Below, piece after piece: positions 13,496-47,876 of a stretch of DNA of 64,000 bases. This DNA comes from an uncultured Alistipes sp. Its GTDB lineage: Bacteria; Bacteroidota; Bacteroidia; Bacteroidales; Rikenellaceae. The DNA lies in assembly GCA_947573795.1 (NCBI GenBank), contig CANPHE010000007.1, positions 1-64,000 of the forward strand, read 5' to 3'. The notes beneath the pieces were generated by a model that had not been told where the DNA came from, ran no database searches, and saw only the letters and a list, made by a program, of their open reading frames with translations. The first letter of the stretch is position 1. Every line of letters begins with the position of its first letter. The translations under genes were made by a program, and so were the position numbers.

Positions 13496-14116
13496 ATGCC
13501 CATGAATAAACTGTTTTTCATCCGGATCATTGCCGCGTTGGCGGTGTTCGCGTCGGCGGGATGCTCCGACAAGGAGGATATTCTGCCCGGTCAGCGCGAG
13601 CGGATCGTCACGTTCCTCGAACGGACGCATGTGCCGCATCTGGTCGAAGCGTCGCAGGTGGAGCCGGATACCGAAACGCCGTTCTACACCGTGACGGGCG
13701 ACGCCGCCTACCGTTACATCGTCTCCCAATACAATCCCGATCGGGTGAACTGGCCCGAGGTGACCTCCCGTTCGAAGGTGTCGATCGTTTTCGAGCTTTA
13801 TGTGCTCGACGCGACGGGCTCGATCACCCAGATCGCCGAGGATCGGTTGCCCGAATATTCGAACGATCCGGCGCTGAAGGCGGCCTATGAGGCGGCGGGG
13901 CTGAATACCGAATACTGGTCGTTCGAACCGCTGGAGATCGATATGCGCAGCGGCGACATACTAAAAGGACTGCGCAGTGCGTTAGTGGGATGCCGGCAAG
14001 GCGACCGGGCGGAGGTCTACATGACCTACAACATGGCTTACGGCGACGAATATTTCGGCGTCGTTCCGAAGCAGAGCCCTCTGGCGGTGATGTTCACGGT
14101 GGAGAAAGTAGAATAA
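13496..14116 (+). CDS. FKBP-like peptidyl-prolyl isomerase-type lipoprotein
   Basis: Lipobox VFASAGCSD; C-terminal FKBP-like strands CRQGDRAEVYMTYNMAYGDEYFGVVPKQSPLAVMFTVEKVE. Confidence 0.65.
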   Translation: MPMNKLFFIRIIAALAVFASAGCSDKEDILPGQRERIVTFLERTHVPHLVEASQVEPDTETPFYTVTGDAAYRYIVSQYNPDRVNWPEVTSRSKVSIVFELYVLDATGSITQIAEDRLPEYSNDPALKAAYEAAGLNTEYWSFEPLEIDMRSGDILKGLRSALVGCRQGDRAEVYMTYNMAYGDEYFGVVPKQSPLAVMFTVEKVE

Positions 14117-14131
14117 TTTAACCTGAAGATA

Positions 14132-15712
14132 ATGAATTTTTTCAAACGATTTCTGTGCTTATCGACTTTCGGCCTGCTGTTGGCCGTGTCGTGCGCCAAG
14201 GAGGAAACCGGATCGTTCGATGAGCTGGAAAACCAGTCGCTCAAAGCGTGGATCACGCAGCATCGTCCGGAACTGGTGGGCAACTACCAGGAGGAGGGCG
14301 GCTATTATGTCGACGTGATCGAGGCGGGCGATGCGTCGGCCGCACCGGTCAACGATACGATCTGCTGGGTGTCGTTCGATTTTACGGGGCGCGATTTGGC
14401 CGGAAACATCATCCTCACGCGCAATGCCGCCAATGCCAACCAGGTCGGAACGTTTACCCGTTATACCCATTACGTGCCCTATTACCGCTATTGCGGCGAA
14501 TATAACCTCAATTTGCTCGAAGGTACCCACCTGGCCATGCGCAATACGCTGCATCTGGACAAGGACTACGCTGCGGCACGCGGCCTGGCAGAAGATTTCC
14601 TGCTCCGCGAGGGTTCCGTAGTGGAACTCTACCTGCCTTCGCGTGTGGTCGGTTCGGGCGGCGTCTCCGCATCGGGCGGTTACGAGGGGCAGTATTCGCT
14701 CGACGCGCGGCGGCCTTATTTCGTGCGGATGGAGATTTGCGAACGCGTCAAGAATCCGCTCGAAAAGGAGGGCGACGAGGTGGACGCCTTCTGCGAGATG
14801 CCGCTCAACGGCGGATTGAAGGTCTACAACAAAGACGAGAAGGACCCCGATACCAAGCCGCTGCCTGAGGATCCGAAGGACCCCGAACATCCCTACAACA
14901 TCGCCGAGCGGTGGGTGAGCGTCAACGACTCCATTCCGCAGGTCTATGTCAACTATCGCTACGATCCTGCGCGGGATCGGATCGCTTATCCCAAGGCCTA
15001 TAATCCGGCCGGAACGCCTGCGGGGAACCCCTACAAGGATTTCGCCGCTATGGAGGAGGAGATTCACCAGGCCCTCGTCAAGCGGTTCCATGCCGACGGC
15101 GAGGAGCCCTACGAAGGTGTCGAGGTGCTCGATGCCGATACGGTGAAACTGAGCGGTACGGCCAATATCTGGTATATCACGCGTTTCCTCGACGGTTTCA
15201 TCATCGATACGAATATCGACGAGGTGAAGCAGATCGCTTTCGGCGAGGTGAAAAGTTCGGGTTCGGCGACTTCCTATACGCCCGAGGAGGGCGGGATGAT
15301 TACCTCGTGGTATTATACTATCCCGAACCTCAAATACGGCCAATGGGCGGCGATGATTACCTCTTCGACGAATGCCTACGGCTCGGTCGGCGTGTCGGGC
15401 GGAACGAATACCAGTACGTCGAACAGCGGTTATTCGAGCGCTTATCTCGACTATCTCAACTACATGAGTTATGCCAATGCCTATTACGGCAGCAGCGGCT
15501 ATTATAACCCTTATTACGGCGGTTATTACGGCTACGGAGGTTACGGATCGGGGTACTACGATCCCTATTACGGCTACGGTTATGGCTACGGTTACGGCGG
15601 TTATGGCGACTACGGAGATACCACGACGACGACCGAGACGAGCATCACGACCGAGATTCCGCCTTTTACACCGCTTATTTTCGAAATTTACATCGAACCG
15701 AAATCGAACTGA
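14132..15712 (+). CDS. Large FKBP-like lipoprotein with Gly/Tyr-rich low-complexity insertion
   Basis: Lipobox LLLAVSCAK; region GSSGYYNPYYGGYYGYGGYGSGYYDPYYGYGYGYGYGGYGDYG followed by IPPFTPLIFEIYIEPKSN; adjacent to the smaller paralogue-like gene. Confidence 0.6.
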   Translation: MNFFKRFLCLSTFGLLLAVSCAKEETGSFDELENQSLKAWITQHRPELVGNYQEEGGYYVDVIEAGDASAAPVNDTICWVSFDFTGRDLAGNIILTRNAANANQVGTFTRYTHYVPYYRYCGEYNLNLLEGTHLAMRNTLHLDKDYAAARGLAEDFLLREGSVVELYLPSRVVGSGGVSASGGYEGQYSLDARRPYFVRMEICERVKNPLEKEGDEVDAFCEMPLNGGLKVYNKDEKDPDTKPLPEDPKDPEHPYNIAERWVSVNDSIPQVYVNYRYDPARDRIAYPKAYNPAGTPAGNPYKDFAAMEEEIHQALVKRFHADGEEPYEGVEVLDADTVKLSGTANIWYITRFLDGFIIDTNIDEVKQIAFGEVKSSGSATSYTPEEGGMITSWYYTIPNLKYGQWAAMITSSTNAYGSVGVSGGTNTSTSNSGYSSAYLDYLNYMSYANAYYGSSGYYNPYYGGYYGYGGYGSGYYDPYYGYGYGYGYGGYGDYGDTTTTTETSITTEIPPFTPLIFEIYIEPKSN

Positions 15713-16387: not shown

Positions 16388-16606
16388 CGTGGGTTTTTGT
16401 AGAGGTGAAGTGAGAAACGCTTTTCGCAGCGTCCGGTTAAGGGCGGGCAATTCAGAATTACTTTTTTAGAGCCGGAGCCAATTAATATAAATATTGGTTG
16501 TTCTGTTGTTGGCGTGTCGTAGCCTGCGGGGTGAGCGTAGCGAGCCTCCGCCCGGGGGAGGCTACGGCTCGCGCGATCCTGCGGATCGCAGTTTTGGGGA
16601 ATAATC

Positions 16607-16804
16607 ATCTTCGGCGGCTGGACCGGTACACCAAAGGTGCGAGCCGCCGAAGATGCAATGCCGAGGCGTTGCATTTTAGCGAAAGACGGGTTGCAGTCTG
16701 CGGAGGCCCGGCTAAGAGTCGGGGCATAAGTTATAGCGGGTTGCAGCCTGCGAGGCACGCGAAGCGGGCCTTCGCCGCCGAAGGCTGTGGCCCGCGCAGC
16801 TCGG
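16607..16804. repeat. Cluster of inverted repeats in a structured intergenic region
   Basis: ATCTTCGGCGGCT/AGCCGCCGAAGAT (16607-16619/16642-16654), TGCAATGCC/GGCGTTGCA, GCGGGCCTTCGCCGCCGAAGGCTGTGGCCCGC (16764-); the last is similar to 48998-49041. Confidence 0.7.
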
Positions 16805-39925: not shown

Positions 39926-40057
39926 CCCGCTCGGCAATTGCCAAATAAATTTGCCATTGCACTCGCTTATTCGTATCTTTGGCTTCACCGAAGATACTGC
40001 GCCTCGGAAAAAATGCAAGCAAGCTTGCTTTTTTCTCTCGGCTTATTCGTATCTTTG
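39926..40057 (+). repeat. Two tandem dispersed promoter-repeat units upstream of tsaC
   Basis: CGCTCGGCAATTGCCAAATAAATTTGCCATTGCACTCGCTTATTCGTATCTTTG then CGCCTCGGAAAAAATGCAAGC...GCTTATTCGTATCTTTG. Confidence 0.85.
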
Positions 40058-47718: not shown

Positions 47719-47876
47719 CAAAGATACGAATAAGCGAGTGCAATGGCAAATTTATTTGAACATTGCCGAGCGAAAGTACCTTCGGCGAAGCCAAAGATAC
47801 GAATAAGCCGCGCGCAAAACCAAAGTTGTTCACTTTTTGCCGAGCGAGAGCACCTAAATCGAAGTCGAAGATACCC
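47719..47876 (-). repeat. Two tandem dispersed promoter-repeat units upstream of the TPR/OM-barrel pair
   Basis: Minus strand CGCTCGGCAA...GGCTTATTCGTATCTTTGGCTTCGCCGAAGGTACTTTCGCTCGGCAATGTTCAAATAAATTTGCCATTGCACTCGCTTATTCGTATCTTTG. Confidence 0.87.

Follow-up and report, generated by a model that had tools for sequence, protein, structure and literature searches.

A tandem FKBP-like lipoprotein conserved in Alistipes, with a predicted disordered, tyrosine-rich insert in the flap of its second domain

The window, a stretch of 64,000 nucleotides from the genome of an uncultured Alistipes sp. (contig CANPHE010000007.1), contains two neighbouring FKBP-like lipoprotein genes separated by a gap of 15 bp (Table 1). 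An earlier note, made from the letters alone, had described the larger gene as encoding an FKBP-like lipoprotein with a Gly/Tyr-rich insertion; the ORF, its coordinates and the sequence that the note quoted all proved correct, and the signal peptide with the lipobox Cys21 agrees with a lipoprotein. The family of this 526-aa protein has no name in Pfam or NCBIfam, and a Pfam search with the single sequence misses the FKBP fold. A single-sequence search of the PDB returned only Tyr-rich antibody chains, which were discarded as composition noise. No relevant FKBP with a Tyr/Gly-rich flap was found in the literature.

Table 1. Features of the two-gene locus, in positions of the window
Feature	Position	Strand	Basis
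Small upstream FKBP lipoprotein, 206 aa, short flap, conserved pair	13496..14116	+	
Tandem-FKBP lipoprotein, 526 aa, family unnamed	14132..15712	+	ORF, profile, predicted model, Foldseek
Signal peptide and lipobox, residues 1-21 (...AVSC), then AKEE (surface-export-like)	14132..14194	+	
FKBP-like domain 1, residues ~30-210, without canonical pocket residues at inspected positions	14219..14761	+	
Region with FKBP-like domain 2, residues ~262-526, pocket residues conserved	14915..15709	+	
Tyr/Gly-rich insert in domain 2 flap, residues 418-508, Thr-rich tail	15383..15655	+	

The insert lies between the AYG motif (residues 415-417) and IPPFTPLIF (from residue 509), where the earlier note had placed it, although its length is 91 aa and not ~85 aa. 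It contains 25 Tyr, 21 Gly, 12 Ser, 11 Thr and 5 Asn, and no Lys or Arg. Its densest 40-aa window, with 18 Tyr, ranks first among the 8,677 ORFs of at least 80 aa in 1.664 Mb of the 2.75-Mb genome (~60%, window included), and the next two in this ranking have 15 and 11. The runner-up with 15 Tyr (L238) is a different-looking Trp/Tyr-rich lipoprotein, a 221-aa ORF on the minus strand with the sequence CQKEPST and the Trp/Tyr/Pro-rich stretch YYVGYDNPYWWWYYPYYWAPSYW. The DNA coding for the insert is not a simple repeat tract, since TRF detects a 12-bp unit in no more than 2.6 copies. The Thr-rich tail was also considered as a site of O-glycosylation, but the D[S/T]x motif was found in 13 of the 47 homologous loops against 8.8 expected from shuffles, which is unconvincing. 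Elsewhere in the window, positions 1-147 hold a 72-bp unit twice, head to tail, the copies being 98% identical, and clusters of interspersed GC-rich, partly palindromic repeats are found at ~16555-16640, 39082, 39962-40042 and 47719-47793; 16-mers of these GC-rich repeats, such as CCCCTCCGAGGAGGGG and ATCTTCGGCGGCTCGC, occur in ~20-32 copies each in 1.66 Mb.

A profile of 47 homologues places the protein within the FKBP fold (FKBP3, E 1e-5), and the match stops at AYG-x-x-G, the start of the insert. The AlphaFold2 model built on the same alignment has a mean pLDDT of 76 and falls below 50 at residues 427-499, which are located between strands 405-410 and 515-521, that is, in the loop at the active site (80s/flap) that precedes the last strand, as had been proposed. 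By Foldseek the model matches tandem FKBPs (wheat FKBP73, FKBP52) over ~470 columns with E 1.6e-7, so that the FKBP-like fold put forward in the earlier note holds. It also matches chain 9hjm_I of PgBAM (E 4.7e-5), which is BamJ-like by sequence; BAM subunits were not singled out among the Foldseek matches of either lipoprotein.

The presence of two FKBP-like domains, with a pocket in the second alone, goes beyond the earlier note, as does a composition of the insert that matches the EL3 loop of BamA in related bacteria. The pocket residues of domain 2 are Y348, D359, I390, W393, Y416 and F517, corresponding, by equivalences assigned by eye, to Tyr26, Asp37, Ile56, Trp59, Tyr82 and Phe99 in FKBP12 numbering. 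Across the 47 homologues they are kept as Y in 47, D in 45, I or V in 46, W in 38, Y in 47 and F in 43 sequences. In domain 1, the pocket residues are not kept at the positions inspected, again with equivalences set by eye.

When the protein is aligned to the SlyD of its own genome, the insert falls where the insert-in-flap domain of SlyD sits, and both this alignment and the model locate it between AYG and the last strand. In SlyD, an FKBP domain is joined by a chaperone domain of the insert-in-flap type (PMC5034536), and grafting chaperone domains near the active site of FKBP12 yields a far better folding catalyst (PMC11013033). The low pLDDT of residues 427-499 and their low complexity do not indicate a folded insert-in-flap chaperone domain, and the insert is predicted to be disordered. 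For this reason the protein is best likened to the SlyD type, as it would work like an insert-in-flap FKBP of that type, without being a member.

A match to the gene was obtained in 59 of the 61 genomes from the genus, and the two genomes without a match are 73% and 77% complete. Further matches are labelled Alistipes or Rikenellaceae; one of them (L056) shares its protein tail with a member of the genus (G045). In all 47 aligned Alistipes/Rikenellaceae homologues the loop measures 66-95 aa and contains 16-31 Tyr, with Lys and Arg nearly absent (25 in total over the 47 loops). Y452 and Y462 are invariant, many further Tyr columns are at least 90% conserved, and the lipobox C21 is invariant as well. 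The insert is not due to chance, because the gene recurs in 59/61 genomes and the loop in 47/47 homologues, with invariant or near-invariant Tyr columns. The earlier note had suggested comparing loop lengths among orthologues for repeat expansion; in this comparison the insert is conserved throughout the genus instead of being expanded locally by repeats.

When a profile was run against 247 genomes of the order, 12 genomes besides the source genome yielded relatives, two from a sister genus (g42) and the remainder from other families. The nine relatives measured in four other families (L060-L068) have an ordinary flap without a Tyr-rich insert, the positions of Tyr82 and Phe99 being 16-23 residues apart, compared to 102 in the 526-aa protein. 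The sister-genus proteins (L058, L059) also have an insert at this point of the flap, of 61 aa and with 5-10 Tyr but not rich in Tyr/Gly/Asn, which is an intermediate state. From the ordinary flaps in other families and the Tyr-poor insert of the sister genus, the insert probably originated inside the family and acquired its richness in Tyr in Alistipes.

The gene is immediately preceded by that of a small FKBP lipoprotein in 48 of 48 loci. In the window, this neighbour is predicted to have an FKBP fold and has a short flap, in agreement with the short form noticed earlier; by Foldseek it resembles 6h3i_B, one of many FKBPs matched. An early weak match had made it a candidate for BamJ, but it reaches only 23-27 bits with the BamJ model (cut-off 100), and another FKBP of the genome fits this model better, also below the cut-off.

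Acidic residues follow the lipobox cysteine in both proteins (CAKEETG in the 526-aa protein and CSDKEDI in its neighbour) and, similarly, in most homologues. This is the pattern of BAM surface lipoproteins, taken here as a lipobox cysteine followed by at least two acidic residues within six, and it has been described for BamH-K (PMC12578637). Of the two locations that had been left open for the 526-aa lipoprotein, surface or periplasm, CAKEE points to the cell surface, and the periplasm is less favoured.

Surface FKBP lipoproteins of the Bacteroidota BAM complex include BamJ and BamK (PMC12578637) and, in Flavobacterium, BamM (PMC12611786). The BamJ model NF053689 (cut-off 100 bits) does not match the 526-aa protein, and its best match in the genome is a different, Mip-like FKBP with 88 bits, below the cut-off. 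Similarly, the sole match of the BamK model NF053690 (cut-off 120 bits) in the genome lies elsewhere and is at chance level (13.6 bits). BamK was undetected in the three Alistipes genomes tested, and its model gave 104-132 bits in four genomes with a Tyr-rich BamA EL3. The match in one genome (L171 in G079) is BamK-like and has a short Tyr cluster of its own, ESYYNTDYSYYYQEY. By hhalign, domain 2 aligns with BamJ-type sequences with E 2.4e-8.

In B. thetaiotaomicron and P. gingivalis the EL3 loop of BamA is rich in Tyr and shows no cryo-EM density (PMC12578637), and bacteroidetocin resistance mutations map to EL3 (PMC8546649). In each of the 37 Alistipes genomes measured, the EL3 region of BamA has 38 aa, of which 2-5 are Tyr. 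A Tyr-rich EL3 of 51-108 aa with 6-28 Tyr was found in 28 other Bacteroidales BamA, and in 46 others EL3 is short, except for one 88-aa loop with 3 Tyr. The core of the FKBP loop consists of 40% Y, 16% N and 15% G, versus 28% Y, 15% G and 13% N for the Tyr-rich EL3, which gives a cosine of 0.96 between the core compositions, and the top five dipeptides (YY, YG, GY, NY and YN) are common to both loops.

In a BamA tree built without EL3 (a quick tree with a midpoint root, the root thus not being fixed), the Tyr-rich EL3 requires two changes, and the Alistipes BamA lies outside the main Tyr-rich clade, among short-EL3 lineages. Two BamA of family f73 (L203 and L205) have an EL3 of 105-108 aa with tandem SPYGYGG-like repeats and 23-28 Tyr; they stand apart from the main clade on the tree, possibly as a separate gain. 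The tandem-FKBP profile found no match in the sampled genomes with a Tyr-rich EL3. As the Alistipes BamA has a short EL3 and lies outside the main Tyr-rich clade, the FKBP flap loop and EL3 seem to have been gained independently, as similar elements of two different proteins. A simple move of the loop from BamA to the FKBP was considered and rejected, because independent gain fits the placement of Alistipes in the short-loop group better than transfer. This complementary distribution is suggestive and not a statistical proof, because it includes few independent events, namely one gain in Alistipes and one or two of EL3. The resemblance of the two loops suggests that two lineages separately solved the same surface-folding problem. 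Since the relatives in other families carry neither loop, the loop is not required for BAM in general.

The reading that we favour, at slightly less than even odds (roughly 0.45), is that of a disordered insert-in-flap surface FKBP with an isomerase pocket in domain 2 and a client-binding Tyr segment, acting most likely at the BAM dome. Domain 1 would be a degenerate module, probably structural, and domain 2, with its conserved pocket residues, may have kept prolyl-isomerase activity. The flap above its pocket is replaced by the Tyr/Gly/Asn/Ser/Thr segment of 66-95 residues, presumably disordered in vivo as in the model. By analogy with SlyD, this aromatic and nearly uncharged segment could bind chains that are still unfolded when they emerge at the surface of the outer membrane, and hold them beside the isomerase pocket; most simply, the disordered segment would perform a looser version of the job of the SlyD insert at the cell surface. 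The likeliest site of work would be the extracellular dome of the BAM complex, because surface FKBPs and the Tyr-rich EL3 have been placed there in Bacteroidota/Bacteroidales. The predicted fold, the insertion site, the conservation, the match in composition and the complementary distribution come from the present analysis; work at BAM is what we infer from the surface signal, fold and composition. A wider proposal, which we advance only tentatively, is that a Tyr/Gly/Asn-rich disordered loop was gained independently in the BAM dome on two subunits, on BamA as the EL3 of one large clade and on the tandem FKBP of Alistipes in its flap, as an interchangeable chaperone element, an aromatic brush holding emerging outer-membrane clients, which in Alistipes would be coupled directly to a prolyl isomerase.

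The same insert-in-flap chaperone and isomerase might instead fold secreted or surface lipoproteins at sites other than BAM; the resemblance to EL3 would then be only the generic look of a sticky disordered surface loop. We regard this as unlikely, but as a serious rival, because the fold, pocket, insertion site and surface signal all stand without BAM, and neither of the curated BAM PPI models (BamJ, BamK) passes its cut-off. However, the composition closely matches that of EL3, and few segments of this kind occur in the sampled genome; moreover, the known Bacteroidota surface FKBP lipoproteins in solved complexes belong to BAM or to the T9SS translocon (PMC12578637, PMC12611786). A partnership with the latter, like that of the SprA-bound PPI (6h3i chain B), which the upstream neighbour resembles among many FKBPs, is very unlikely; no SprA match was found in the genome, which is ~90% complete, in a search run without a positive control.

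The aromatic, low-complexity composition rich in Tyr/Gly/Asn and the predicted disorder would also permit an adhesive or prion-like segment, self-associating or sticking to surfaces, mucin or cells, with the FKBP domain as a mere scaffold. This is improbable given the conserved isomerase pocket residues beside the loop, the fixed Tyr positions, the bounded length and the location inside the flap rather than at the end of the protein; a client-binding insert-in-flap role fits this position and the relatives better. Finally, the variation in length from 66 to 95 aa and the many successive Tyr and Gly codons might be taken for repeat slippage in a tolerated, functionless loop. Such a neutral expansion is very unlikely, as the gene is kept in 59/61 genomes, Tyr columns are invariant, Lys and Arg are almost absent (25 in 47 loops) and TRF found no long DNA repeat.

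What is new here is an insert-in-flap FKBP present throughout a genus, whose insert is predicted to be disordered and resembles BamA EL3 in composition. If the favoured reading, a client-binding insert-in-flap FKBP at the BAM dome, is true, it would represent a disordered counterpart of the insert-in-flap chaperone of SlyD, acting on the surface of a common genus of gut bacteria. As part of BamA, which is essential, the Tyr-rich EL3 is difficult to study on its own; an EL3-like composition on a different, possibly dispensable lipoprotein would make its role testable by deletion or loop swap, so that this FKBP would offer a direct experimental handle on it.

Compared to known systems, the protein shares with SlyD and SlpA an extra segment that sits next to the isomerase pocket, between AYG and the final strand of the FKBP fold (PMC5034536, PMC11013033). 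However, SlyD is a small protein with one FKBP domain and its insert is a folded chaperone domain, whereas the Tyr-rich insert described here is predicted to be disordered and belongs to domain 2 of a lipoprotein. With the Tyr-rich EL3 it has in common a near-equal composition and dipeptides, disorder, length and few charges (PMC12578637; PMC8546649), but EL3 is part of the BamA barrel in a different clade, and the Alistipes BamA is without a Tyr-rich EL3. BamJ, BamK and BamM are likewise FKBP-type surface lipoproteins with acidic export-signal-like residues (PMC12578637, PMC12611786); BamJ and BamK differ in size (~185-200 aa), and the members read have no Tyr-rich insert. The short-flap tandem-FKBP lipoproteins of other families (L060-L068) have the same two-domain plan and, in several cases, an adjoining small FKBP lipoprotein gene, and are distinguished by the 16-23 residues of their flap versus 102 in the Alistipes protein.
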